Below are positions 2,656 to 64,000 of a DNA stretch of 64,000 nt, piece by piece. The DNA is taken from assembly GCA_026874595.1 (NCBI GenBank), contig CM049319.1:2628101-2692100 (forward strand). Direction: 5' to 3'. Within the stretch, counting starts at the first letter, position 1, and the number at the start of each line of letters is the position of its first letter. A program made the position numbers and the translations under genes. Source of the stretch: Sipunculus nudus. Its lineage: Eukaryota; Annelida; Sipuncula; Golfingiida; Sipunculidae. The notes under the pieces were generated by a model, which had not been told where the DNA came from, searched no databases, and was given only the letters and a program-made list of their open reading frames with translations.

Positions 2656-2768
2656 TCACACTTCTTATCTAATACATGTATATAAACAAAATCAAACCGA
2701 CGTAACGTTCAGATATGGTGATATCATATTCCTGTATATGTTGAAGTGTGACTATTGATATATTTCAG

Positions 2769-4850
2769 GAGACCTATCATTACGAACTGACGGAGGGCAA
2801 CAAGACAATAAAGGGGAAGCCGTTTAACGTGAGCAGCAAGTACCTTCACCTGCCAGAGCTGGGATTTTATCGTCAGAACTACATCCAACTCAACAACGAA
2901 ACGTTAAAAAACTTCATCTTCGTCACTGCGGCCAGCAGTAACCATTTTGAAGAGAGCATGGATGCTATTGGTTCGATTCAAAAGCATTTCCCAAACTATA
3001 CGATCATCTACTATGACATTGGTTTAAACGCTGGTGAAATATCTCGATTGAACAAGATCTGCTCAATAATCTATCGCAAGTTCCGGTTTGAACTCTATCC
3101 TGAGCATATCAAAAACCTGCACACGTATGGTTGGAAAATTTTAGTTATCCAGGTATGTGTACAATTTGCAAAATGAGAAATCTTGTGTCTCTGTGAATTA
3201 TTTAACTTATTTGTAAATTATAACAATAGTCTCCGGTGCATAGACCGCATATAGACAAATGTCGACACTCAGATTATAATATGGTAAAATTTTGAAGGTG
3301 GACCAGCAAGAAGCAGTTTGTTATCTGGATTGGTCTAGATTATAAACGCAATCACTTTTGATTATAATTTTATTCTAGGCTTGCCTAGATTTATACTATC
3401 ATTTTTTACAGTAAAATAGTTCACGTTTTTCAATTATCCTTTGAGTTACTTTTCTTATTCTTTTAGCTGGTTACTTAAATGTCTTTCACTGTATAATTTA
3501 TATTCAATGTGAACATACTCAATATAAATATGTGCATTTATGTGGGGGGTTTCACTAAAGATATTCGAAATTGGCTACCTTTTTTTAAATAAATATACTA
3601 TATTTATAGTGAATGATTTAATATGCACTTATATTTCCCCCATTCTGACAAGGGAATGTATATCAGATAGACGTATTGAATTTTTGCAAGGATTACTCAA
3701 AATATTATATTTTTGCAGTCGTTTTAACATTTTGATATTTTAAGACATAAAATAAATAACAAGGTTAAACCTCAGTTTCCCTGCATCCAGGCATGGATTT
3801 TGTGAGTGTACTATATACATGTATATGTAGACTATCATTGAATGTTCTAATAAGACAGAGGAATTGCTCTGAGCAAAAGAATAATTGACTCCTAAGATAG
3901 GCAGCATGGTCTCACCTGTTGTGATAGGTGTTCTTAACAAACATTTTGATGATATATGACAATAATAACAAGGCACAACATTTACAGTTTTATTCAGTTG
4001 GAGAATCATTGAGAGATATTTAGTGCATGTATATGATAAGCTTAGAACCGAATCATTGTTAAAATATCAGTGCAGATGGAGGTCAGGACGGCTATGTCAA
4101 AAAGGATTACAATAGATTCAAAAAGGCCTCTCTCGGTCAAATGAATTGGCCGGCAATTTAATTATTTAGGAGATAAACGTCAACTGTGTTACGAATTCTA
4201 TAAATCTGCGCATATTTAGTATGTAAGTGATGAAAAACGAAGTTCTAATATAATGCACTATTTTTGCTGATTGTGCCACAAAGTTAAACATAAATTAGCA
4301 GTGTGTGATGCCTACTACGAATTTATTAAATCCTCCATTGCTTTAACAGGAAACGCTGCAGGACTACAGTGGAATCATCTGGGTGGACGCCTCTGTCAGA
4401 TTTATAACGTCAAAACTGTGGAGTGTACAACAGTATGTTCTGAAAACGGGAGGAGGTATCATATTAGAAAACACATTTTATTCTATTTATTCCCCCACAC
4501 ATCCCGGCATGTATGACTACATACCTATAGATAAAAAGAAGAGCCAGACTCACATGATGCGGGGATCTAACCACATGATATTCTACAACACCAAAGAGAT
4601 ACATGATAAAGTGTTAAAGTGGGCTGTGTTGTGCACCCTGGACAGAAGATGTATTGCCCCTACCTATAATCTGCAGTGTTCTTTCAGGAACCGCAAAACG
4701 ACTTGGGCTAAATGTCACCGTTTTGATCAATCTCTTTTGAATATTCTGTTTGCGAACGCTTACCATTTTAAACCTTGGCTTGTATTAATGCGCGTTGCGC
4801 ATGTCAAGCGCTTCGTTACACATATGTTTCGCGTACATTATTGTGCATAA
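2769..4850 (+). CDS. DUF1647 family protein, last two exons (5' partial)
   Basis: Two exons: 2769-3152 (acceptor TTTCAG before it, donor GTATGT after it) and 4350-4850 (acceptor TTAACAG), ending in TAA. Both junctions are phase 0, giving 294 residues of continuous reading frame. The first exon carries FIFVTAASSNHFEESMDAIG and a YTIIYYDIG segment. The second carries GIIWVDASVRF, a GSNHMIFYN segment and a C-terminal CHRFDQSLLNILFANAYHF block. This order matches the DUF1647 family, known from nematodes and molluscs, which resembles glycosyltransferase-type folds; the biochemical role is unknown. The N-terminus (normally a signal anchor) is missing and must be encoded upstream. The ORF extending left of 2769 starts in the polypyrimidine tract and is not real. 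An AATAAA at 5093 is a plausible polyadenylation signal. The last ~25 residues look less family-like. Confidence 0.8.
3153..4349 (+). other. Intron of the DUF1647 gene
   Basis: GT-AG intron of about 1.2 kb between the two DUF1647 exons. AT-rich; no repeat, ORF or RNA gene recognised inside it. Confidence 0.7.
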
Positions 4851-19123: not shown

Positions 19124-21502
19124 CTACACGTCTGTCGCTTCAATCTGAACACGTCTTGGAGGATCAAGACTTCTAATACTTGTCTGACTATCTGATGAAA
19201 ATCCGCGGAGAAAGTTCATTCCAGCTGCCCTAACCGATAGCAAACACATCGTGCTGAGAGCTAAAAGAAATCCTTGGGCAGCGAACAGGAGAGAAAATAT
19301 TCCAATACAAAGCCAATTTTCAGTAAAATGACCGAAAAACCACATGACCCACGTCAACCCCATCACTACAAACAGGCGAATGAAGAGAACGATATCTCTC
19401 TTATCAGGTGCTAACGCCACCTGGTTTGACCTAGATTTGATCAAGAAAATAAGCGATACTACAAAAGATATGATGTTTAAACAAGCCGAGATAGCAGCTG
19501 GGGTCACAAAGAAAATGAAAAGTGGGTAAGTATTCCCTATCCAGCAATTAGCTCTCCCATACCCAGGCCGGAATTGATCCGGGACGGGGGCATGGTCGAT
19601 AATCAGAGTTGTTACTGTGCAGAGTGTCGGGATTCCCCAGGCGACCAACGAGTTTTTTATGAACCTGTGCCTGCTGTCTCCTACGAGACGAAGACGCCAA
19701 GTGGAATAAGACATTTTACAAATACTCACTGAGAGAACGGACATCCATACAAATGTTGCCAGGAAGCTCCAATGTTTTCCAACACTGGCAACATAACATA
19801 AAGTTTTGTGTTTTGTATACGTCGGTGATAAAATCAGAATCATAATTGACGTTTCCATAGCAACTGCTAAACTTGTGTGTATTTTGCCCATAGGTTGACG
19901 GAGCTCAGGTATACACAGGGGTGCAGCAATTCGCAAAGCCAGGAATGTAAATGAAATAAAGAGAGCTGTGATCCATATCATATTTAACATCTTTCTCACA
20001 TGAGATAATGTACCCCCTTGTTTTTCGATACCATCCAAGCATATCAGAAACGTGTTCCTGCGAGCTAAGATTACTTGTGATTCGTTAAAAGTTTGGTTGT
20101 AACCAACCAGTATGAAATCATGGCCTACCGCTTTAATTTCTGTACCTGCGTATTCGTACCATGAACAGTTGGACTTTTGTAGAGCTTCATTCTTATAGCA
20201 TTTCTTTCGATCAACTAATACTTCACAGATATTGGTTCTATCAAATACACGCCGGCAGCGAAGGTGGCGCCACCTATGTCCGTGTGAGCATGTCGGTTCT
20301 GTCTTCCACTCATTATTGTCAGCGTTAGGTCCTAGGGAAAAGAGGATCGGTATACTCCATTCTATGTTAAAATGGTCGCCAGGGGAAGAGACAGGTGATC
20401 CGCATTCGGTCTTGGAAAATATAGGGTATGCACAAAGCAAGCAGTATATGTTCTTAAAAATTTCTTGTTCATGGTGAAGGGTATTGTACCCTGAAGACGG
20501 ACAAGCGTTTCGTAAGTCTGGGTTAGTACATTCCTCATATTGCTTCTCATTATAAGTATGGCACACTCTAAAACTTGAATTCATCGGTGCTTTCACTAAC
20601 AGCTGGCATTCAGGCTCCTTGCCTTGTAAAATGCTGCTAATTAGTTCCCCCTTTGATAAGTTTGCGAATTTGTCCTCGAAGAAATTAACCTGGCGAACAT
20701 CTTGGAATCTCGGTCGCTGACAGTAGACCTCAACTCTCCAAGACTGCATATTCCGTATATCATTACACACGGCACAGTGGACATTAGAATAATGAAGTCC
20801 GGAGTTCAAATCAGTTACTGGTACAAACCCATAAGGAGAGTCGGTTGATACGTTACAAGCAGTGGCCTCATTTGGACAGTCGGTGATTATTTTAACTTGT
20901 GAAGTGAGAGTATCATCCAGATTACTTCGTGGGAATCCACGAAGTGCACAGACTGATTCTGGAGTGTGCTGATTCGGTCCCCCCCAGGCTGAAGCTTGCT
21001 TATACTCCTGGGGACACTGTTCCCGAAAATCCAGACAGCAATCCTGGTAATACAAACATGATGTATCACAAGAACAGCTGTCCTCCAGCGACCCCGTTCT
21101 CTGACCACAACGGTTTCTGCATCTTGCACAATCCGGTAGACGTAACTCAAGCTCCTGACGGGTTGGTAAACCACTGACCAGCCAAGATGGGAAGTGTGGG
21201 TCCTCGTTTGTTGAAACACTTGTCACGGTTGGAACTGTCGTACTTATTGACGGCAGAACTTCTGTTGTAGAATTAGGTTTTGTATTCTGCTTTGGAGGTT
21301 TGTCCGTACTCTGCTTCGTTAATGTTACATTTATATGGTTAAAGCCGGTTATCTTCTTCGACACAGTGAGCCAAGGGACTGTACTGACCTTACGGTTCAC
21401 TACTGCTTTATCATTCTCCTTATGTGTTCTTGAAACTTCGCCCATAAACACAGGTAACAAATGTATCACTAACATCCATGACACAGCCACACAATATCCC
21501 AT
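19124..21502 (-). CDS. Somatomedin B / Methuselah-like 7TM receptor
   Basis: One uninterrupted 792-codon frame on the minus strand; an in-frame TAA lies 18 bp upstream of the ATG. Residues 1-22 form a signal peptide. A Ser/Thr-rich linker (about 60-100) precedes a somatomedin B domain at 125-163 whose cysteines (CARC..C....CSC...C....CC......C) fit the family knot. A long Cys-containing ectodomain follows. From about residue 505 there are seven hydrophobic segments (MIWITALFISFTFLALRIAA, then a SVSICKMSY segment, LTWVMWFFG and others) of the secretin/adhesion class, nearest in layout to Methuselah-like receptors. I see no clear GPS cleavage motif. It would act at the plasma membrane through G proteins; the ligand is unknown. 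It is intronless over the coding region, which is unusual for this class. It converges with the oxidoreductase. A decayed copy lies at 46015-48113. Confidence 0.9.
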   Translation of the reverse strand: MGYCVAVSWMLVIHLLPVFMGEVSRTHKENDKAVVNRKVSTVPWLTVSKKITGFNHINVTLTKQSTDKPPKQNTKPNSTTEVLPSISTTVPTVTSVSTNEDPHFPSWLVSGLPTRQELELRLPDCARCRNRCGQRTGSLEDSCSCDTSCLYYQDCCLDFREQCPQEYKQASAWGGPNQHTPESVCALRGFPRSNLDDTLTSQVKIITDCPNEATACNVSTDSPYGFVPVTDLNSGLHYSNVHCAVCNDIRNMQSWRVEVYCQRPRFQDVRQVNFFEDKFANLSKGELISSILQGKEPECQLLVKAPMNSSFRVCHTYNEKQYEECTNPDLRNACPSSGYNTLHHEQEIFKNIYCLLCAYPIFSKTECGSPVSSPGDHFNIEWSIPILFSLGPNADNNEWKTEPTCSHGHRWRHLRCRRVFDRTNICEVLVDRKKCYKNEALQKSNCSWYEYAGTEIKAVGHDFILVGYNQTFNESQVILARRNTFLICLDGIEKQGGTLSHVRKMLNMIWITALFISFTFLALRIAAPLCIPELRQPMGKIHTSLAVAMETSIMILILSPTYTKHKTLCYVASVGKHWSFLATFVWMSVLSVSICKMSYSTWRLRLVGDSRHRFIKNSLVAWGIPTLCTVTTLIIDHAPVPDQFRPGYGRANCWIGNTYPLFIFFVTPAAISACLNIISFVVSLIFLIKSRSNQVALAPDKRDIVLFIRLFVVMGLTWVMWFFGHFTENWLCIGIFSLLFAAQGFLLALSTMCLLSVRAAGMNFLRGFSSDSQTSIRSLDPPRRVQIEATDV

Positions 21503-24500
21503 CGTTAGCCTGCGCAGACATTAGTTTCCAAAAAAAAACTGAACCTTTTTTTGAGTCCAAAAGACACTGGACTTCCGATAATTTACTTGAATAATTTACC
21601 TGCTTTTGACGAAACCATTACGTGCAATTATTATTTGCTTCACCAAATTGAACTGTAGATCCAGAAACACCCCACAGTACACCGGAAGAGCGTAGCACCG
21701 GCTGTCCACACTCCATTATGTATTGGGCTTTTATTGTTTTTGGCACGGGCTGTTTGCCGTAGACACTGCTCCCAATCTCCCCTTTCGTGATTACGTGACA
21801 GGAATCATTTAAGCCTGTGTCGGTGTATAGGACGCTTTTATTTGTGAAGCCATGGATAATGCTTAAAATTGGTATCAGACAGGTCCATCAGGGGAAACGT
21901 TTTTCTAACATTTGGCGATACATTTAACTCCACATGCTATTGACTAAATGGAAGCTGATAAAGTTTACAAATATATAAATATAGAATTATTAAACTTTAG
22001 TTCATATTTAAAAATGTCATGATTCTTACATCTGTATTAGGAACAATATACACGGTAACTACAGAACATCACACTGGGGAATGTATTGAAGATTTAGTGC
22101 AAATGAATTAAGTGCCTGATCTTTTTGGCTGATGTTGAGAGCTCTTTGATATAATTTGTATTTTTTATGTCTTTATTTACTCTTCTCGGGTGTTCTATGT
22201 ATACTAGACAGAAAGTATCTACATTGAGTACATCAGCAACCTTTTCATCTGCTTTGCTGGTTGCCCTTTACTGATAATGCCACAAAGAACTTCCTGTTTA
22301 GGGGCATAGAGGCTTGAGATAGACCAACCTGCCAGCCCAGGCTTAACCACTCAACCTCAAAGTCTGCAGGGATTAAGCTTGGTAATTACCCCTGTCTGGC
22401 TAGCTTTCTGTCGTGACAGAAGTGACAGCTTTGTACAAATAACTGTCCCAAGCCTGGTATCCATTTCCTGTATCATACATGTACCGGAGTACCTTATACC
22501 AGGTACAGGTACTTCAGATCAGGGTACATGTACTAAGTACTTCCTGATCATGACAGACAGATACAAGTATTGGTACAGGTACTCTTAATTGTGTCCGTCC
22601 GTCCGTCTGTTCGTTTACCATTGTTATGCGGCGCGATATCTCGAAAAACTTTACTTAGATCTACTTCGAATTGTAGTAGCAGGTGCATCTTTATTGTCAC
22701 ACTTGAATGATTTTTTTTTTATATTTTTAATGATTTTTTATACAAAAGTTTTACATTTCAAATGCGACACGATTTTTCAAAAAGTTTTACAGGGATCTAC
22801 TTGTATTTTTAGTAGCAGGTTCATCTTATGTGTCTCCAGAGCTGATTAGTTTTTCTGTAACACATGAATGATTTTTTGGAGCCAGAGCCAAAGCTTTGCT
22901 GTTACACTTGAATGATTTTTGGATATTTTTCTAGATTTGATTATATGGAATGTTTACATTTCATATACGAAAAGATGATTAAAAATCTTTTACAGGGATC
23001 TACTTCTATTAATTGTAGCAGTTTCATCCTATTGGTCTCAAGAGGTGATTAGTTATTTTTTTTGTCACACTTGAATGATTTTTCTATATCTTTTATGAAT
23101 TTTATACAACATTTTTACATTTCATATGCGACACGATTTCTCAAACGATTTTACAGTGATCTACTTTTATTTATAGTAACAGGTGCATCTTTTGGGTCTC
23201 CAGGGCTGATTAGGCTGTTGTTCACACTTGGTTCCATTTTGGATTTTTTTATGAATTCATAATTCTTTTGCTTTTTTTATGAATTTCGAAATTCTATACA
23301 TTTGATATGCAATGCAAGATTTAAAAAACTATCACTCAAATGCATGCCTCCTCAAGATGGCGGGAATATCTCAAAGGCCTTACCTGAACAAGTTTAGGTC
23401 ACAGGTTAACGGATTGTGGGATTTATTTCTCAATTTTTATACTTAATATGAAACATTATATGCAATGTAAGTATTTTAAAAAAGTGTTACAACAATCCTG
23501 TTCCAATTAACTAGGCGGGTATATTTTATTGTCATCTATACTTGAATAGGTTTGGATGCACTCTAATCTTATTTTGTGATTTTTTGATACCCTTCTTTGC
23601 TTCAGCTTCGATTACAGAGCAAAGTGCACAATTCTCTCTTAAGTCACCGTATTGGCAGCAGATAACTGACCTTAATTGTTGTCGGTCAATTCTGTGAGGG
23701 TGTGTGTATGTCGCTGTGTGTCCACAACAAAGCTGAAGATTGGTCTAACTGATTTTAATGATATGTGACATATAGGTTTGTAATATGTACATCTGGAAAC
23801 AATTAATTGTTGGTATTCATCTCTGGACAAATAACCCCTGGATGAGCATTTTCTTGGTATTGACAACGTTCTTTCCATCTGTTATCGATGGGATGAGATC
23901 ATACAGCCATCTATGCACTAGATCAATATCACCACGCCATGTGCAGTTTGGTGAAAGCTGGCAGAAAGTCAACATATACTGCATGAATGATTTCTTTTTT
24001 TTTTTTTTCTTATTCTAAACCCGATATTCTTATGCAACGCGATATCTCAAAAACTTACTTATATCTAGAAACATGAAAGTTCAGTCCGTACCTATTACAA
24101 AATCGGTTAATAATAAATCAATTAGCGTTTCAACCTCATCGGAGGTCAAATGTGAGGTACATATTCCGTCTTTGCATTCTATCAATTCGGACAGTTAATC
24201 TAAATTCATGGATGTTGTAACCATCATCAACTGTCTCTTAAGTAACTTTATATTTCTAATGTCGCGTTGTATCCCATGTTTGTACATCTGACTTTCCAGA
24301 TATCGTAAGTTGCCTCCATTACACCGAGGTATAAGGAGCTCTGTTTGTAAAAAAATTTACGAAGTCACTTGCAAGATCCTGCATGTTCAGAAATAAATTT
24401 ATAAAGCGTGAGCTGATTATATTTATCAGAGCCAGAGAGCCCGACAATCCATGTACAACATATTTGTGCGATTTATATGCTGAGTGCCATCTATAGGTGA

Positions 24501-27955: not shown

Positions 27956-28695
27956 TATATATATGTATATATGCTTGCGTTTAAATATATATATAAATGT
28001 GTGTGTGTGTGTTTAAGTACAAATAAATAAACTAGTCTGTCTTAAAGGTATCCCTCATTTTGTACCTTACACAAACTGACACTATAACACTCACACTAAA
28101 CGTTAACACAAATGCTATACGTTTAATATCCAAATAGGTAACATCTGCTTTTAAACATGTGTGTGTTTTAAATGACTAGCCATCCAACCTGATTTCGATT
28201 TACCAAATACACCTTTACACGGATGATTGATTTTGCATTTTTGGTTGATTTACATATATTGCAGCCACAAGTGGTTTACCTGAGTCTGTTTATATGACGG
28301 GATCTAGAGCGTAGACAGGATAAAATATTTCCATAATAATTTGTACACTGGACAAAATAAATGCCCATACGAATTGCCATCATAAAAGCTTCAGATAATG
28401 TGACATACCTCGACACGCTTTACTAATCAGTACCGGGAAGAAATAAAATTCCAGATTATGAAGCCTCATATTATATCAAATTAACTTTTCATGTTTACAT
28501 CATATCGCTGTGGTAAAATGTCATATATCATATTAATTCTAACCAGAAATTAATTAACCTGTGTACGTGTCTGAATGTACATATATAAGAAAGTTATAGC
28601 TCACAGGTAGATTATAACGTATGATTATTGTAAAAGTGACTATAAAACATACATAGATACAATGATCTATACACTAGGTGAGTGAATATATTATT

Positions 28696-33935: not shown

Positions 33936-35749
33936 GTCTGACTGACAATAATGTCGGCGAATTAGTAACTCCAATATCCAGTTGCGTTATTTGGTAATTA
34001 GGAATTAGTTTCTTCCTTTTCACCAATATATATCTTCTTGTCAGTTGTTTTATAATATTATTAGGTTCTACAGGAAAAACACGTTCAGCTTCTGAGACAT
34101 ATGAAGGTGAACTGACAGGTTGTTGGGCTAGCCGGGTATTTATAAACATTGTTTGGACCATGTTTAAACCTCCACGTGTCCCAGGCCAGCGTTAGTTTAC
34201 ATTACGACGACATGACGGTCCGTGCCGAGAGCTCCACGCTGGAATCGATGACGCATTTGGGTACTGGGAAATCCCCGTTTATGTTTGTAGCGCCATCTGT
34301 CGGTTTCATTTTACATCACTTCTCGCTCAGGTCTGTGCACGTGGAGATGCCGGTGTATCCTAAGGGGGGGGGGGGGCTTATGGCACACTCATTAAGTTAA
34401 GTGGATGCGGCCCCTACTACCATGGCATCACCAGCTAATAATTAGTTAATATCATTATCAAAGGCATCAAGATATTGTTCTCGCCATCGTCTTACTTGGA
34501 TACTTCCCGTCCCGTCGGGTCAGACCGCCTTGACTTGCATGGCTACTCGTCTCTAAACATGAATGTTGAGATGGTAAACATCAGGAAACGGTGCAATAAG
34601 ACTAAAAAGTTACTGTGTGGGTAGTTTAAAACATTTTCTTAATAAACATTTATTCTGACTTCAATTTGATTTTTCAGAATTATTGATTGATAATCTTTAT
34701 TCCTCCGAATTCGAAGTGTTCAATCAATTTGAGTTGAAAAGAAAAGAAAAATAATGCAACATGCAACATCATTGGAAATACTAAATAGCTATACAGAGGG
34801 TCATATTGTTCTAGTTAGTTATGCAAAGCAGATACAGAGTTAGTGAAATAATGCTTTTAAACCCAAACGCATGATTCCGGTAATAATTGATCAAGGAAAT
34901 ATTTTATACCTTGGCCTAACATAGCACGTGTGTACATAAAAACATATGGTCATAATAAGATAAACGATTTGTTTGTTTTCCAAGGATAAATTGTACAAGT
35001 TCATAATTGTCAAGACTGTGCAGCGAATAATTCCGTTCATTCATAAGACAAGTACAATTTGTACACAGTGACAGGGCATATTGTTCTATTTCTCAGATTG
35101 TTTTGGTCGGTAAAACGGGGTGTGTGTCCCCATTCCTCGCCCCTTAAATCCGCCCCTGTCGACGCCTCTCACGCTGGCATTTATCTCAATGAGTGGGTCA
35201 ACGCTCTCACCGTATTGATAAGAAGTGAGTAAAGCGTTTCTAATTAATTTTGTAAGCGGGATTGGTAACTCATAACGACCATAATTGAATTAATGGTATA
35301 CACAAAGAGCGATCGATAAAACAAACTTAGACTTAGACTTACATCTGAACCTAGTAAGTTAATTATTCGCGTTTTTATATTCGCCGATGACTGTGGATAC
35401 ATCAAAACTCGTGTGTTCAGGTATTTGGAATTGGCATTCTTTTTTATATTTAAACATATTCAGGTGTCAGACCTCAACCGTGACATTGTGTTTTATTAGT
35501 ATGAACAGTGCGTGATATTCATACAACATTTCTGAACTTGTACGAGCCTATGTGTACTGTTCAGTGTAAACTGTAACGCTACACAACAACACGGTATCTA
35601 GCTTCTACGTACAGTACCGCTAATTGTCTGGTGGCTTAATTTACTGACCATCCACTTCTACCCGGATAATCTTTGCTTTATGTATCGTTTCTTTTCAATG
35701 AAGGTCAAGAAAGGATGCAATGACATATACGCATCCACAGAGGTTTTTT

Positions 35750-35980
35750 GGTTGGTATATGTTATCTGCCATCCTTAGTGACTAGTATGTATACTTTAAA
35801 GGAAATAAGCGTATATTACGAAGTTCTAATTTCTAATAATGGTAAGCTGTATCTATATATATAACAAAGCGATATTTTGGTTGGTATATGTTATCTGCCA
35901 TCCTTAGTGACTAGTATGTATACTTTAAAGGAAATAAGCGTATATTACGAAGTTCTAATTTCTAATAATGGTAAGCTGTA

Positions 35981-36007
<27 letters not shown>
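35750..36007. repeat. 129-bp tandem duplication inside unit 1
   Basis: The block starting GGTTGGTATATGTTATCTGC at 35750 recurs at 35879, and the second copy runs into (AT)n. Unit 2 has one copy, near 38498-38610. Confidence 0.9.
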
Positions 36008-46014: not shown

Positions 46015-48113
46015 TTACACATCTGTCTGTGCAATCTGTACACGTCTTGTCGGATCAGGAATTTCATTACTGGTCGGGTTATCTGATAAAAGTCCCCGGA
46101 AAAAGATCCTTCCAGTTCCCCTATGGTAAACACATAGTGCTCGGAATTTATCCGGAACGGGCGCATGGTCGATAATCAGAGTGATAACAGTGCTGAGTGT
46201 CGGGATTCCCCAGGCTTCCAACGAGCTTTTCATGAACCTGTGCCTGCTTCTTCCTACAAGACGAAGACGCCAAGTGGAATAAGACATTTTACAAATATTT
46301 ACCGATAGAACGGACATCCATACAAAAGTGGCCAGGTAGCTCCAATGTTTCCCAACACTGGCCACATAACATAAAGTTTTGTGTTTTGAATACACCGGTG
46401 ATGAAATTAGAATCATAATTGACGTTTCCATGGCAACTGCTAAACTTGTGTGGATTTTACCCATTGATTGACGGAGCTCAGGTATACACAGAGGTGCAGC
46501 GATTCGCACAGCCAGAAATGTAAATGAAATAAAGAGAGCGGTGATCCATATTATATATAAAATCGTTCTCACATGAGATAATGTTCCCATTTGTTTTTCG
46601 ATACCATCCATGCAGATCAAGAACATGTTCTTGCGAGCTAAGATTACCTGTGATTTGTTCAAGGTTTGGCTGTAACCAACCAGTATAAAATCATTGCTTA
46701 CCGCTTTAATTTCTGTACCTGCATATTCGTACCATGAACAATTTGACTTTTGTATAGCTTCATTCTTATAACAATGCTTTCGCTCAACTAATACTTCACA
46801 GATATTGGTTCTATCAAATACACGCCGGCAGCGTAGGTGGCGCCACCTATATCCGTGTGAGCAAGTCGGTTCTGTCTTCTACTCATTATGATCAGCGTTA
46901 GGTCCTAGGGAAAAAGGATCGGTATACTCCATTCTATGTTAAAATGTTCGCCAAGGGAGGGAACTGGTGATCCACACTCGGTCTTGGAAAAGATAGGGTA
47001 TGCACAAAGCAGGCAGTATACGTTCTTAAAAATGTCTTGTCCATGGTGAAGGATATTGTACCCTAAAGACAGAAGCATTTCCTATGTCTGGATGAGCACA
47101 TTCCTCATATTGCTTCTCATTAAACGTATGGCACATTCTAACACTTGAATTCATCGATGCTTTGACTAACAGCTTGCATTCAGGCTCCTTGCCTTGTAAA
47201 ATGCTGCTAATTAGTGCTCTCTTTGACAAGTTTGCGAACTTGTGCTCGAAGAAATTTACCTGGTGATCCTTTTATGTTTGTTCATCAGTCACGTCCCAAT
47301 CTTGAAATCGAGGTCGCTGGTAGTAGACCTCAAGTCTCCAGATTGCATATTGCGTATTGATTACACGCCGCGCAGTGGACATTAGAATAATGAAGTCCGG
47401 AGTTCAAATCAGTTACTGGTACAAACCCATAAGGAGAGACAGTGGACACGTTACAGGCAGAAGTCTTATTTGGACAGTCGGTTATTATTTTGACTTGTGA
47501 ATTGATAGTATCATCCAGATTATTTCTTGGGAATCCACGAAGTGCACAGACTGATTCTGGAGTGTGCTGGTTCTGTTCCCGCCATGCTGAACCTTTTTTA
47601 TACATCTGGGGACAGTGTTCCCGAAATCCAGAAAGCAGTCCTGATATACGAACATGACCTATCACAAGAACAGCTGTCCTCCAGCGACCCCGTTCTCTGA
47701 CCACACCGGTTTCTGCATCTTGCACAATCCGGTAGACGTAACTCCAACTCCTGACGGGTTGGTAAACCACTGACCATCCAAGATGGAAAGAATGGGTTAT
47801 GATTTGCTGAAACACTTTTCACACTCGGAAATGTCGGTCCTATTGACTGAAAGGTTTCCTTCAGCAGGTGGTTTCTTGTAAAGATTGGTGTTGTGGTCTG
47901 CTTTTTATCGTGGCCTGTCGTCTGCTTCTTGATAGTTACATTTACTGGGTTATCGACCAAACTCTTCACGGACACAGCGCGGGAAATGACTTTACTACTA
48001 AGATGCCGCTCTCCTACTTTTTCATTCGCCGAATGTCTTCTTGTCACTCCACCAGGAAACAAAGGTATCACGGGTATCACTAATATGTGCGACACAGCTA
48101 CGAAATGCGCCAT
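46015..48113 (-). pseudogene. SMB/7TM receptor pseudogene (copy B)
   Basis: Collinear with 19124-21502. The ATG and a signal-peptide-like start (MAHFVAVSHILVIPVIPLF) and most of the SMB domain (CARCRNRCGQRTGSLEDSCS) remain. The frame then breaks near 47600-47660 (small deletions), again around 47230-47330 (local insertion) and near 47090. A nonsense codon lies at 46879-46881, where copy A has Trp. TM1-TM4 are open in 46015-46662. About 0.3 kb covering TM5-TM7 is deleted, and the frame after the deletion again matches the copy A C-terminus (RRVQIAQTDV). It cannot make a 7TM receptor. Confidence 0.93.
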
Positions 48114-48116
48114 AAG

Positions 48117-51335: not shown

Positions 51336-51752
51336 GGCTAGTGTAGGGTAAGGTTGTATTTTAAGATGTCAATAGTAAAATGTAAAATAATTTTTAGCTC
51401 AGTTGATTGAGTGGTCGTTCGGCCGTCTGAGCCTCTGTTAATAAGGCACAAATCATGACCACAACTCCAAATCAAGCAAACTCCGCACAGGACTAAAAAG
51501 GTTGGTTTATCTGGTATTTTTCTTTTCAGAATATATATAGTGGGGGCGGGTCGATTTCGTTTCCTTATTAAGTATATATTAAAAAAGGATACATTTTGTT
51601 ATTTTATTTTAATGACAGACTTCTCCGTAAATTAAATTGATAAATTTTTACTGAACCTCATAATGAGCATTTTGATACGGGGTCAAAGTTTTGTCGTTGT
51701 GTCTGAGATACCAATTTTCTTTTTGGCTTATAAGAAAATTTAAGTGGAAAGT

Positions 51753-52284
51753 CGAAATAAGGTCATGATAACCAATATTCTAGGGCCAACAAGGCCAAAG
51801 GCAAGATCTTAATACCTTGAAAAATGAGATTCTTCTTAGGATCCGATGAGCTGCGCAGATATTTTGTGCTGTTCAAGAAATCTAAGTTGTGTGGCTCAGC
51901 ATTTTTCAATGAAATATTTAAAGATCCTATGTGTATGCTGTTACAGGTGGTCTTTTTATTGAGTGACTCGGGCGTAACTCCTGTTGTGGCACTCGTGTCT
52001 GGCCGCGTTTTACATTTTCGAAATAAGGTCATGATAACCAATATTCTAGGGCCAACAAGGCCAAAGGCAAGATCTTAATACCTTGAAAAATGAGATTCTT
52101 CTTAGGATCCGATGAGCTGCGCAGATATTTTGTGCTGTTCAAGAAATCTAAGTTGTGTGGCTCAGCATTTTTCAATGAAATATTTAAAGATCCTATGTGT
52201 ATGCTGTTACAGGTGGTCTTTTTATTGAGTGACTCGGGCGTAACTCCTGTTGTGGCACTCGTGTCTGGCCGCGTTTTACATTCC
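51753..52284. repeat. 266-bp perfect tandem duplication
   Basis: 51753-52018 and 52019-52284 appear identical. Each contains about 186 bp of flank plus the first ~80 bp of the solo LTR, so a partial LTR (51939) precedes the full one (52205). The two identical ORFs on each strand arise from this repeat. Confidence 0.93.
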
Positions 52285-56391: not shown

Positions 56392-58106
56392 AATATGCCA
56401 TAGTGACCTATATTATATGAACTTTAAGCTAAAGCATAATTCTGAGCAATCTGAAAGTCAGACAGGCACATATCACAACTAATGGACCTAGAAATTTCTT
56501 ATGTAATATCAATGGAGTTCCAAGTGAAATGTAAGAAACCTGAAATTATATCACTGTGACCTATGTTCTGCAACTATGTTCAATAACATGATTTTGATAA
56601 CAGGTTTAATAAACATGCACAGTGTTCAGGGTTGTATACATATAATTTGCATTTTTACATACCATTAAAATATTATAAAGCAAACTAAAATCTACAATGA
56701 TGTACTTTTTGCAAAATACAATTATTTTCACAAAAAAGGCCAAAATAACCTCTACAGAAATGACAAAAGCACTTGTTAAATCATAAATGAAATTATTTCA
56801 GTTTCAGTAAATTAAAAGATATATACACTGGTATATCAATAATTAATGCTTGGATTGCCTGTCAAGCAAATTAAGCTGAACCTCATGCCCATGGTAACAA
56901 TAACTTAATTCATTTTTGAAGTTTTTATTATTTATAAACGCCCAAGCCAAAAAAAGTAATTTTCTTTATGAAAGTAAAATCATTCCATTTTTTTTAAATA
57001 TTTTTTCATACGCAAAATGGTCACGTGTGAGCATTCGGTTTTTATCCAAGAGTTTTATCATATAGGTACAGATATTATTCTCACACAGGCCGAGCGGGGC
57101 AAGTAAATTTAAAACATTTGCTCCGCTTGTTTAAATTTTTATCAACATTCAAGTTTCCTTAAAATCATATTAAACGCTTATGAATTCAAACGTGGGCAGT
57201 CCATTACCTAATATGTGCACCATTTATTTGTGTAGAGACACTGAACCTACCTTGAATGAGTAACTGGTCGCAATGGTCTGATTCACCTCCTTCCAAGAAA
57301 ATGACAAATAAACAATCATCAGTGTATCATAAGTGTAAGATCAGTGTTGCGTCAGTAATGGAGGCCAGGATTTTACGTTTTTCAATTCTGGCAATGATGC
57401 CATTCGTGCTTAACCGTGCATATAGCATTTAACTAACAGGACTCTTAAACGTCCCCTCGATTCCTACGAGGATACAACGATCATCTCAGCATCTGATAAG
57501 TCTGCTGATATGATGAGCAGGTAAGGTGAAAGTAAGCATGTATGGCATTGCACATTAAAAAAAAACTAAGATATTAACATCATGCGCGTGATACTGATCT
57601 ACCAATATTTATAACTGTGGATATTCAGACGAACACACTCCATTGTGTAACACCATGAGACTTGATTTCATTTTGGTAATCAAATACAGCAGCCATTATG
57701 TGAAAACAAAGTTAAATTTCAGACCAATACAATTCTACTGGTCGCATCTTTGGTGAAAGGTAAGTGGAGGTAATTTGCTACTTAACTATTTCATCGACAG
57801 TCTGCGGTCAACCAGACCTCAAACATTCGAACTAATTTTTAATTTGGTTTACAAACAATACCTGGAATGGCTGGCTCGTATTGTTGTTAAGATGACAGTC
57901 CCACCTGACATACATGTTCATGCAATAACTAATTCACACGGCCCATCTTGGATGTATAACTGTTCTTTTAATGTTATTATTGGTCGTGGCATTGCCTAAC
58001 TGTAAGCAAATGAGTATAAATGTTCACATATCGGAAACGGAAGTGCAATAAAGTCGCGTATAATATCACGAAAAGTATTACTAATCATCGGTTGAAATTA
58101 TATACA

Positions 58107-59090
58107 AGTATATTTGTAGAGACGACAAAACTGGAAAATGTAAACACCATTCATTATATCTGATCTGTTTAAATGATTGTGCTTTTTATATTCTTATATT
58201 TAAGTAGGGTCGTCCTGAAGTCACTTGGAAGGTTCGTACTGAATACTTTTGTTAGTAAGGCCCAATCTTAATTTTATTTTTAACTTTGCCAATACATTTA
58301 CAGATAAAGATGTGCTGCTGCAGGTAGAGTAGGTCGTTATGTAGCAGTAACAGATGTTACAAAATATTCTGATACATTTTTGGAACCAATGTTTTTTGGA
58401 AATCTTAGACCATCGGGAATAAATCTAGCGTTGGTTCTCTTTTTACTGCTTTTATGACAGCCAAATTGTATTTCCAAATGGCAGGTGTTTTTCCATGTAA
58501 TGCTATATGTGTGCACGGTCCCTAGGGGAACAGTGTCTCTGGGTGTTCTGAATGTTACTTTTATGTCATGGAATGTAACTTTATTCAATGCTTATTACTT
58601 TAGAATAGATATATAGCAAATAAATTGATATGATGCGGTTTATCAATAACAAATATGCATACCGAAAGCCTATGAAATTAAAAAAAATTAAACAAATTAT
58701 AGCACCAAATATATTTTAATATATGCAAATTTAATTGATAATTAAGGGACAGATTTTATTTCAAATGGCATTTCGTTGGTATGGGCACATGGACCAAACA
58801 AAATTTTAATTGACGTTGGTACCACTTAACCTTTATCACGGAACTCCTTTTCAGATGTTCCCCACAAATCGTCAGATATGTTTTTAGTGCATATTAGAAT
58901 ATATTTGTGGAGACAACAAAAACCTGAAAATATAAACACCATTCATCATATCCGGCCTGTTTGAGGGACTGTGCTTTCATGATACTGTTATTTTAGTAGG
59001 GTCATTTGTTTTCTTGAAGGCACTTGGATGGCTCATACAAAATACTTTTATTAGTTAGGCCTAATCTGAATGTAATTTTTTAACTATGCG
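58107..59090. repeat. Direct repeat pair, ~190 bp
   Basis: 58107-58290 and 58898-59090 share TATATTTGT.GAGAC.ACAAAA, TAAACACCATTCAT.ATATC, TAGTAGGGTC and AATACTTTT.TTAGT with many substitutions, so this is an old local duplication or two copies of one repeat. Confidence 0.7.
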
Positions 59091-60743: not shown

Positions 60744-63076
60744 ATGGCGTGTAAATGGTTTACATTTTTTAGAGGTTTGTTCTTTGTCTTACAGTTTTTT
60801 TTTTGCTATGGCGGACTTGCATTAGCAGCTATTGTTCCGTTATTTATATATAATGTTACAGGAAAAAGGGCTAGTATGGCCATGGGTCTTGTCATTTTGT
60901 TTTTATCAATCTGTATGGGCATCCTTGCTAAATATTGCAATCGAAAAAATGCACAGCGATGCACAGACTCGTGCCCAGACATTTCTTGTAAGTGTTGTAT
61001 GCAGGACGAATGGATCAATAACGGAACCAGGGAACATTTCAATTTATCCGGGCAGAGCCATATTAACAGCAGGTTTGCATTTGATATTATATATTTTTTA
61101 TTCTAACATCTTACCAAAATTGATAAATTTCACAAATTTCAAAAATATATTTCTTTCCGCCCGTAATCGAAGTGGTATCTACATCTTCCAGGTTATAAAT
61201 TCATTTAAACGTGAAACTCTATATAAGGGACCTCTATAGTCGCAGTTGTTCAGAACTATAAGGTACTGTGTTCTCATGATATGCATTGATTTTTTTTTTT
61301 TCAAAAATGTATTCATTTATTATATTTGTATCAGCCAACCATCGTCAGCCAACCATCCTCCTCAACAGTTGTCGGTCAACTTGCAGCCGTCAGATGGCGC
61401 TGTGAACGAAGGTTTCTCTGAGGGAGATCCGCCATCTAATGACGTAGTGATGCGTCAACCAGGAATGTATGTACATGGTATCCGTAACTTATACCCGCAT
61501 ATATCAAATATAAAGTTGATCAGGCCTTATCTCCCTAGCTCGCAAAGGGTAAAAGGATTATTATTCTTTGCCAAAATCCCTTGGTAATTTAATTCGTATA
61601 GTTTACATCTGTTTATAACATTTACAGATTTGACACGACCAGCCGACCCATCGCACATGCATCAACCCATTGCGGTCATCCGCAGCGGTTTGGAATAAAC
61701 TTGCAGCCGTCAGATGGCGCTGTGAACGAAGGTTTCTCTGAGGGAGATCCGCCATCTAATGACGTAGTGATGCGTCAACCAGGAATGTATGTACATGGTA
61801 TCCGTAACTTATACCCGCATATATCAAATATAAAGTTGATCAGGCCTTATCTCCCTAGCTCGCAAAGGGTAAAAGGATTATTATTCTTTGCCAAAATCCC
61901 TTGGTAATTTAATTCGTATAGTTTACATCTGTTTATAACATTTACAGATTTGACACGACCAGCCGACCCATCGCACATGCATCAACCCATTGCGGTCATC
62001 CGCAGCGGTTTGGAATAAACTTGCAGCCGTCAGATGGCGCTGTGAACGAAGGTTTCTCTGAGGGAGATCCGCCATCTAATGACGTAGTGATGCGTCAACC
62101 AGGAATGTATGTACATGGTATCCGTAACTTATACCCGCATATATCAAATATAAAGTTGATCAGGCCTTATCTCCCTAGCTCGCAAAGGGTAAAAGGATTA
62201 TTATTCTTTGCCAAAATCCCTTGGTAATTTAATTCGTATAGTTTACATCTGTTTATAACATTTACAGATTTGACACGACCAGCCGACCCATCGCACATGC
62301 ATCAACCCATTGCGGTCATCCGCAGCGGTTTGGAATAAACTTTCAGGCGACAGAGGGCGCTGTAAATGACTGGTTCTCTGAAAGAGATCCGCCATCCTAT
62401 GACGTAGTGATGCGTCAACCAGGAAAGTATGTACATGGTATCCGTAACTTATACCCGCATATATCAAATATAAAGTTGATCAGGCCTTATCTCCCTAGCT
62501 CGCAAAGGGTAAACGGATTATTATTCTTTGCCAAAATCCCTTGGTAATTTAATTCGTATAGTTTACACCTGTTTATAACATTTACAGATTTGACACGACC
62601 AGCCGACCCATCGCACATGCATCAACCCATTGCGGTCATCCGCAGCGGTTTATAAACTTGCAGGCGACAGAGGGCGCTGTCAATGACTGTTTCTCTGAAA
62701 GAGATCCGCCATCTTATGACGTAGTGATGCGTCAACAAGGAAAGTATGTACATGGTATCCGTAACTTATACCCGAATATATCAAATATAAAGTTGATCAG
62801 GCCTAATCTCCCTAACTCGCAAAGGGTAAACGGATTATTATTATTTGCCAAAATACCTTGGTAATTTAATTCGTATAATTTACATCTGTTTATAACATTT
62901 ACAGTTTTGACACGACCAGCCGTCCCATCGCACATGCATCAACCCATTGCGGTCATCCGCAGCGGTTTATAAACTTGCAGGCGACAGAGGGCGCTGTCAA
63001 TGACTGCTTCTCTGAAGGAGACCCGCCATCTTATGACGTTGTTATTATTGTTCAAAGGATTTCGACTGACGTCTGA
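60744..63076 (+). CDS. Two-TM protein with exon-repeat PPxY tail
   Basis: Seven exons join in frame: 60744-61072, 61335-61466, 61628-61786, 61948-62106, 62268-62426, 62588-62743 and 62905-63076 (TGA), giving 421 residues. An in-frame TAG lies 18 bp upstream of the ATG. Exon 1 encodes two hydrophobic segments (about 8-37 and 44-64), then a Cys-rich stretch (CTDSCPDISCKCCMQ). Exons 3-6 are phase-2/phase-2 and 159 bp (156 bp for exon 6); each encodes one 52-53-residue unit beginning FDTTSRPIAHASTHCGHPQR and ending in PPS(Y/N)DVVMRQ. Exon 2 has only the second half of a unit; exon 7 replaces VMRQ with a new terminus VIIVQRISTDV. Donors are GTATGT and acceptors TTTACAG. The motif is PPSN in units 1-3 and PPSY in units 4-6. 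PPxY binds WW domains, for example of NEDD4-type ligases, so a membrane adaptor role is inferred. No known family recognised. If an intron is retained, each unit instead reads to a stop after KIPW. Confidence 0.75.
61381..63060 (+). repeat. Tandem exon-intron array, 320/317 bp x6
   Basis: Units start at 61381, 61701, 62021, 62341, 62658 and 62975. Each holds the second half of one exon, a 161-bp intron and the first half of the next exon. Units 1-3 look identical over all 320 bp, including the intron. Unit 4 differs in the exon half, and units 5-6 differ more and share a 3-bp deletion (317 bp). The last unit is cut short after the exon. Confidence 0.95.
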
Positions 63077-63229: not shown

Positions 63230-64000
63230 AGAGTTAACATAGGTTAAACAAGCAACCAGCTAAGACCTTTACACGGATGATTGATTTTGCATTTTATGGC
63301 TTGATGTACATATATTGCAGCTACAAGAGGTTTACCTGACTGTGTATTTGTAATGGGATCTAGAGCGTGGACAAGTTAACATATTTCCGAAAAAAAATTG
63401 ATTTGTACACTGGACAAAAGAAATGCCAATACAAATTTCCATCATAAAGTTTCAGTTAATGTTGCATACCTCGACACGCATTGTCTGTACAGCGAAGAAA
63501 TAAAATTCCAGATTGTGTAGCCTGGTGTAAAATGTCATATATCATATTAAATGTAATCAGAAATTAATTAACCTGTGTACATGTTTGAATTTACATACAT
63601 TTATCTGAATTTATTATAATATATATATGTGTGTATATTTATGTATATGTGTGTGTGGCTGCGGAGCAAACAAGCTGTTTCCGGTATTAGCATCAACGCT
63701 CTGACCTGTTTTTGTCACGAAATGCTTTCCAAAGCTTTGCGCAAAAATAGCTCATATCTGACCTTCAACGGATAACCCCGCCTCCTTTTCCAAAATCCTG
63801 AATCCGCCCCTGCACAACAATAAGAGGGAGGCTTAAACCTCAATAATTGGTTTGAGACACCGTTTGGACGGCAGTGAACCGACTGTTCTGTGTATTCATG
63901 TTCCATTTCTATCCTCTCTCTTTGAAATATTTATAAACACTGAGATCATATTTTAAATTTCACATATTTCAAAATAGGCTGACCGTCAACATTATATAGT
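63230..64000. other. Non-coding block matching copy A 28.2-29.1 kb
   Basis: Follows 28200-29110 closely (CTTTACACGGATGATTGATT at 63269 and the same word near 28213; CATACCTCGACACGC in both). AATAAA at 63499 could serve the PPxY gene. No gene. Confidence 0.65.
63774..63810 (-). mobile_element. hAT-like transposon terminus remnant (copy B)
   Basis: Minus-strand CAGGGGCGGATTCAGGATTT, the counterpart of 28870-28953 in copy A, so this insertion predates the segmental duplication. Other end not found. Confidence 0.5.

Follow-up and report, generated by a model that had tools for sequence, protein, structure and literature searches.

Paralogs and tandem tail-exon duplication of a predicted PY-motif membrane protein gene in Sipunculus nudus

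Does the row of closely similar exons near the 3' end of this 64,000-nucleotide stretch of the Sipunculus nudus genome (hereafter 'the window', C14:2628101-2692100) belong to a real gene and, if it does, what is gained as the exons multiply? The question bears on PY-motif membrane adaptors, which influence the choice of receptors that NEDD4-family ligases degrade, and which are hard to trace because little is conserved outside their motifs. Seven exons, referred to here as the ladder gene, span 60744-63076 on the forward strand and read in a single frame of 421 amino acids to a TGA stop codon (63074-63076, +), giving a protein that ends in RISTDV. All six introns are GT-AG, the first of 262 nt and the following five of 161 nt each (61467-61627, 61787-61947, 62107-62267, 62427-62587 and 62744-62904, +), and all six splice joints are in phase 2. 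The start codon lies in exon 1 (60744-61072, 329 nt), which also encodes two hydrophobic segments, at residues 11-38 and 42-66, and a cysteine-rich stretch, and has the donor GTTTGC. The remaining exons, also on the forward strand, carry one repeat unit each: exon 2 (61335-61466, 132 nt; unit 1, PPSN), exon 3 (61628-61786, 159 nt; unit 2, PPSN), exon 4 (61948-62106, 159 nt; unit 3, PPSN), identical in sequence to exon 3, exon 5 (62268-62426, 159 nt; unit 4, PPSY), a mosaic, exon 6 (62588-62743, 156 nt; unit 5, PPSY), from which 3 nt are missing with the frame kept, and the terminal exon 7 (62905-63076, 172 nt including the TGA; unit 6, PPSY). Since the unit is present in the 3' part of exon 2 and in exon 7 as well, there are six PPS[N/Y] motifs in all. 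Copies can be added or skipped in frame because every repeat exon is phase 2-2, and, as the lengths of exons 2-6 are all multiples of three, any subset of these could be skipped without shifting the frame. A donor-like GTAAGT occurs within exon 1 (60988-60993), and a paralog, P2, has GTGAGT at the matching cysteine codons; splicing at GTAAGT would cause a frame shift.

Exons and introns were copied together. The array (61378-63039, +) is described by TRF as 5.2 copies of period 320 with 97% matches, the unit being 320 nt, or 317 nt in the copy that lacks 3 nt, which is the only indel among the units. A preliminary description of this locus had proposed tandem exon duplication, with exon copies of phase 2-2 and six in-frame joints leading to a TGA, and both the 421-residue model and the 320-nt exon-plus-intron unit agree with it. 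Units 1 and 2 do not differ across the 277 nt they share, nor do units 2 and 3 across 320 nt of exon and intron; the absence of differences in these 597 nt limits divergence among units 1-3 to less than about 0.5% (95% bound). Such identity may reflect assembly error. Unit 4 differs from unit 3 at 14 exon sites, all of them within the final 84 nt, and at 2 of 161 sites in the intron (Fisher p 8.9e-6 for 14/84 against 2/161); from unit 5 it differs at five exon and seven intron sites, plus the 3-nt gap. Mosaicism of this kind is what conversion or unequal crossing-over between units produces. Diversifying selection acting on the exon's 3' half was dropped as an explanation, for a conversion-tract boundary accounts for the contrast equally well and no dN/dS value exceeds 1.

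Two further tandem duplications, at 51752-52282 (266 nt) and 35746-35992 (129 nt), have 100% matches, and thus very recent local duplication has occurred elsewhere in the window as well. The window also has a diverged minisatellite array (1789-2656; periods 21 and 42 nt), diverged repeat pieces spaced at ~790-800 nt upstream of the ladder gene (58100-59080), and a segment 3' of it (63265-63388) that is 87% like 28211-28332 and is probably a dispersed repeat. Genes of other kinds are represented by a 7TM receptor of secretin type, whose single open frame of 798 residues includes a somatomedin-B domain (19124-21520, -), a second, similar receptor copy broken across several frames (46015-48116, -), and an exon with a DUF1647 match (2745-3173, +; E 2.4e-20). 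Immediately past the end of the window come 2,500 N in a row (C14:2692101-2694600).

The locus itself speaks only faintly for coding. An exon of 159 nt with the composition of the array is open in the required frame in 15.5% of dinucleotide shuffles, and because the copies are not independent of one another, the open frame alone is weak evidence. Nor is the length of exon 1 unusual, the window having 16 other ORFs of at least 100 codons outside the stretches set aside. With a codon-usage score trained on six ORFs of the window, and 329 other ORFs as the null, exon 1 scores -0.072 against a null mean of -0.077 and a null 95th percentile of 0.09; the six repeat exons score 0.044-0.155, four of them above that percentile, and some of their reverse frames match the forward scores. 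Rfam and tRNA scans across the window gave no match.

Firmer evidence comes from the rest of the genome (1,426,538,692 bases in 153 contigs). Used as a DNA query against the whole assembly, the unit has at least seven matches, six of them in the array; the match outside the array, C14:2738007-2738126 (82% identical), lies at P2 (C14:2736955-2738176, +; 205 aa). Two further paralogs, P3 (C14:32421698-32420536, -; 182 aa) and P4 (C14:33790044-33789021, -; 217 aa), occur on the same contig. Each of the three is built of two exons: the first has an ATG and encodes two hydrophobic regions, a phase-2 intron follows, and the second, the only tail exon, carries two PPSY motifs. Exon 1 of P2, with its phase-2 donor, is also rich in cysteines, and its tail exon ends GDPPSYEVVMRKPGKYIPGEDKPPSYTDIISGL. 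Searches of the genome with P2 found the P3 tail (E 5.3e-12), P3 exon 1 (E 5.8e-4) and the ladder gene (2.6e-11), and searches with P3 found the ladder units (8.0e-12). P4 was reached through a weak tail match at C14:33.79 Mb (E 2.1 with P2 as query, 7.75 with P3), next to which an open frame supplies exon 1, rich in cysteines and encoding two hydrophobic regions, and joins the tail in phase 2. A genome search with most of P4 exon 1 revealed no further family member (only other match, E 1.46). Ladder exon 1 as a genome query did not find P2, P3 or P4 at E<=10, and its weak matches on C7 (E 0.5-2.3) were dropped since no family tail lies beside them. Two relatives have decayed, C14:2742990-2743289 with four stops and C14:32551159-32551335 with two. 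Downstream of P3, at about C14:32418800-32420100 (-), lie frames that, by their motif, resemble a decayed non-LTR reverse transcriptase.

The ladder gene, P2, P3 and P4 were compared pairwise for both parts of the protein. Tails are more alike than shuffled sequences in all six pairs (p 0.001-0.002), and so are first exons (p 0.001-0.043) when shuffling preserves composition separately in residues 1-70 and in the remainder; for ladder exon 1, whose likeness to the paralog first exons is weak, the p value is 0.001 with P3, 0.001 with P4 and, at its weakest, 0.043 with P2. Over a 25-codon core of the tail, dN/dS is 0.06-0.66 in 21 pairs, which share sequences and are not independent; seven pairs reach p<0.05, all with dN<dS, and 14 are not significant. 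An earlier idea, that substitutions carry no purifying signal, was abandoned once the paralogs had been added and these seven pairs showed a silent excess. By sequence, then, contig C14 carries at least four intact genes of the family, and we judge the ladder gene to be real because three intact two-exon paralogs with a common plan reside there.

The paralogs also indicate the origin of the repeated exon. Over its 5' half it aligns to the tail exon of P3 (HASTHCGHPQRFGINLQ in the ladder gene, NASSENRHLQKLGINLQ in P3), and the 5' end of exon 2 is similar to the tail exon of P2, from which it follows that the whole repeat exon corresponds to the tail exon of the family. In P2 and P3 the frame continues across the position of the ladder splice donor to the second PPSY. 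That the ladder intron is a lost coding end, with its second PPSY, was rejected: alignment to paralog exon continues through the first 8 bases of the intron, past these there is no recognizable likeness, and the next 60 have no similarity to the paralogs (p 0.73-0.97 in four tests), whereas the matching 60-base stretch is similar between P2 and P3 (p 0.0005). The tail exon was duplicated in tandem, and with it went adjoining sequence that would now serve as the 161-nt intron.

The motifs themselves have not all stayed the same. Canonical PPxY motifs number three in the ladder protein and two in each of P2, P3 and P4. Tyrosine is ancestral and asparagine derived, because PPSY occurs in all three paralogs and in units 4-6; PPSN occurs exactly in the three youngest, identical units, 1-3, and the latest growth has therefore added no canonical WW-binding motif. 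Units 4-6 retain PPSY, and one copy with a Tyr-to-Asn change would then have spread as units 1-3. According to the authors of a study of YAP and PTCH1, exchange of this tyrosine for alanine abrogates WW binding (PMC4301871); by analogy PPSN probably fails to bind WW domains, and units bearing it probably do not act through them. The preliminary description saw here a ladder of PPxY repeats whose number tunes valency for a WW partner. Six motif positions, and hydrophobic segments, are indeed present, but three of the six positions are PPSN, and tuning by repeat number sits badly with a canonical motif in only half of the positions and the derived form in the youngest units. One extra canonical motif could nonetheless matter, given what motif loss does elsewhere: in the report on CYYR1, which has three PPxY motifs, losing one barely matters and losing two drastically reduces binding (PMC11399591), and the two PY motifs of Commissureless (Comm) are described as acting additively (PMC12101832).

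Known families offer no ready placement. Pfam gave nothing above its curated cut-offs for the ladder protein, exons 1-2, unit 4, P2, P3 or P4, a zf-CHCC match to the ladder protein (E 0.0026; 18.2 bits, below the cut-off of 27) being set aside. A sequence search of the PDB found no relative (one match, E 0.29). Protein-database searches likewise yielded none with the full ladder protein (scored against the 7998 candidates with most words in common), exon 1 (6 candidates) or P2 (663 candidates), and 21 pattern matches among viral contigs included no relative. A literature search of limited journal coverage turned up no account that we recognized as this gene. Coding status, which the preliminary description had assumed, gains support, chiefly from the intact paralogs, and its remark that no family could be recognized agrees with the Pfam, PDB and protein-database results; its 'previously undescribed' adaptor stands in that no described family was found, and should be applied to the whole family, at least four genes, and not to the ladder gene by itself. 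Kyte-Doolittle hydropathy gives two hydrophobic regions in all four genes, and a structure predicted with low confidence from the single sequence of exon 1 (mean pLDDT 64.1) has helices at 2-39 and 46-75. Ahead of the first hydrophobic region there are only one or two cysteines; most of those in the ladder protein, P2 and P4 follow the second, and P3 has six, scattered. Only six of the nine PPSY motifs, including all three in the ladder protein (PPSYDVV) and three of the six in the paralogs, have an acidic residue directly after the tyrosine. The C-termini RISTDV (ladder) and ISGL (P2) fit the class I PDZ-ligand pattern; as a family feature it was discarded, for it fits two of the four genes only.

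The reading that we favor, and hold to be fairly probable, is that the ladder gene is a real coding gene of this small family, that its product is a membrane PY adaptor for NEDD4-family ligases, and that its tail exon was duplicated and a PPSN copy spread. All seven exons would be spliced together. The hydrophobic regions, going by hydropathy, would anchor the protein in the membrane, the PPSY motifs of the tail would be bound by the WW domains of HECT ligases of the NEDD4 family, and a ligase so brought to membrane cargo would ubiquitinate it for endosomal sorting. The newest growth would lengthen the tail and supply no further canonical WW ligand. Genome-wide there are 26 WW and 68 HECT matches, and the two are same-strand neighbors at C2 8.32-8.33, C8 72.81-72.85, C11 10.48-10.51 and C13 13.79-13.80 Mb. 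From distance and strand, each of these four places would represent one WW-HECT gene, and such genes are possible partners of the ladder protein.

What drives the growth can be read in several ways. We would give an even chance to the idea that unequal crossing-over and conversion multiply any unit, extra in-frame units being tolerated, without function, in a disordered tail. The identity of units 1-3, the mosaic unit 4 (p 8.9e-6), the perfect tandem duplications elsewhere in the window and the fact that the spreading copy carries PPSN all accord with it; that every copy keeps frame, splice sites and phase, and that seven of 21 pairs have an excess of silent changes, does not. Selection for extra units, each a WW docking site, could account for six motif positions against two in the paralogs, and three canonical motifs against two, and would profit from additivity of the kind described for Comm (PMC12101832), but it seems unlikely, as the three youngest and identical units carry a PPSN derived from PPSY. 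The striking point at this locus in fact opposes the valency idea, for the latest growth multiplied a motif that had lost its key residue.

Might the PPSN units have a purpose of their own, as spacers or as ligands of a partner without WW domains, the RISTDV terminus perhaps being a PDZ ligand? The PPSN copies are identical and in frame, and RISTDV and the ISGL of P2 fit the class I pattern, but that pattern occurs in two of the four genes only, and we think the proposal improbable. A related suggestion, that the PPSY/PPSN ladder is still changing, with splicing or copy number of cassette exons setting the number and spacing of docking sites and PPSN units serving as spacers or binding another partner, strikes us as unlikely. 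Very unlikely is that the locus is a non-coding tandem repeat or a dead gene, its frame a chance reading of one 320-nt unit. The modest improbability of the open frame (0.155), the unremarkable codon usage of exon 1 and the decay of two relatives in the genome would suit that explanation; the three intact paralogs with their common plan and intron phase, the likeness of the tails beyond chance, and an only indel of 3 nt speak against it.

On the favored reading, a single genome holds a small PY-adaptor family with a common exon plan, one member of which is changing its motif number by exon duplication. Because its units differ at a key residue, the ladder is a natural experiment on motif count, spacing and identity.

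Two groups of known proteins invite comparison. Comm of insects and PRRG4 of vertebrates are likewise short membrane proteins, with acidic and hydrophobic residues after the PY motif (GLPSYDEAL, GLPSYEQAV), and Comm is said to require GLPSYDEAL (PMC5578492); the ladder family has Comm-like PPSYDVV, PPSYEVV and PPSYDAV. Comm has one transmembrane domain, however, whereas the ladder family has two hydrophobic regions; unlike in Comm and PRRG4, the tail exon of the ladder gene is duplicated, and Pfam finds no Gla domain in the family. The Shisa-like, or STMC6, proteins (CYYR1, WBP1, WBP1L, VOPP1 and TMEM92) are also membrane proteins with several PPxY motifs, and CYYR1, with three, is reported to bind the WW domains of WWP1 (PMC11399591). 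STMC6 proteins are described as single-pass, and in most of them the N-terminal part has six cysteines arranged as C*C*CC*CC (PMC5578492). Predicted tails with PPSY, three in the ladder protein and two in each paralog, recall this group, but there is no such cysteine block before or between the hydrophobic regions, and these number two in all four genes by hydropathy and the low-confidence model. By layout, then, the ladder protein is neither Shisa-like (STMC6) nor a Commissureless. By analogy it most likely works as Commissureless, PRRG4 and CYYR1 do, serving NEDD4-type ligases as a PY adaptor at the membrane. In tandem exon duplication, symmetric exons are copied head to tail along with their introns; the ladder gene departs from this in that its youngest copies bear an altered ligand motif. 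The kind of protein and the mode of growth are both already known; the variant itself appears new.
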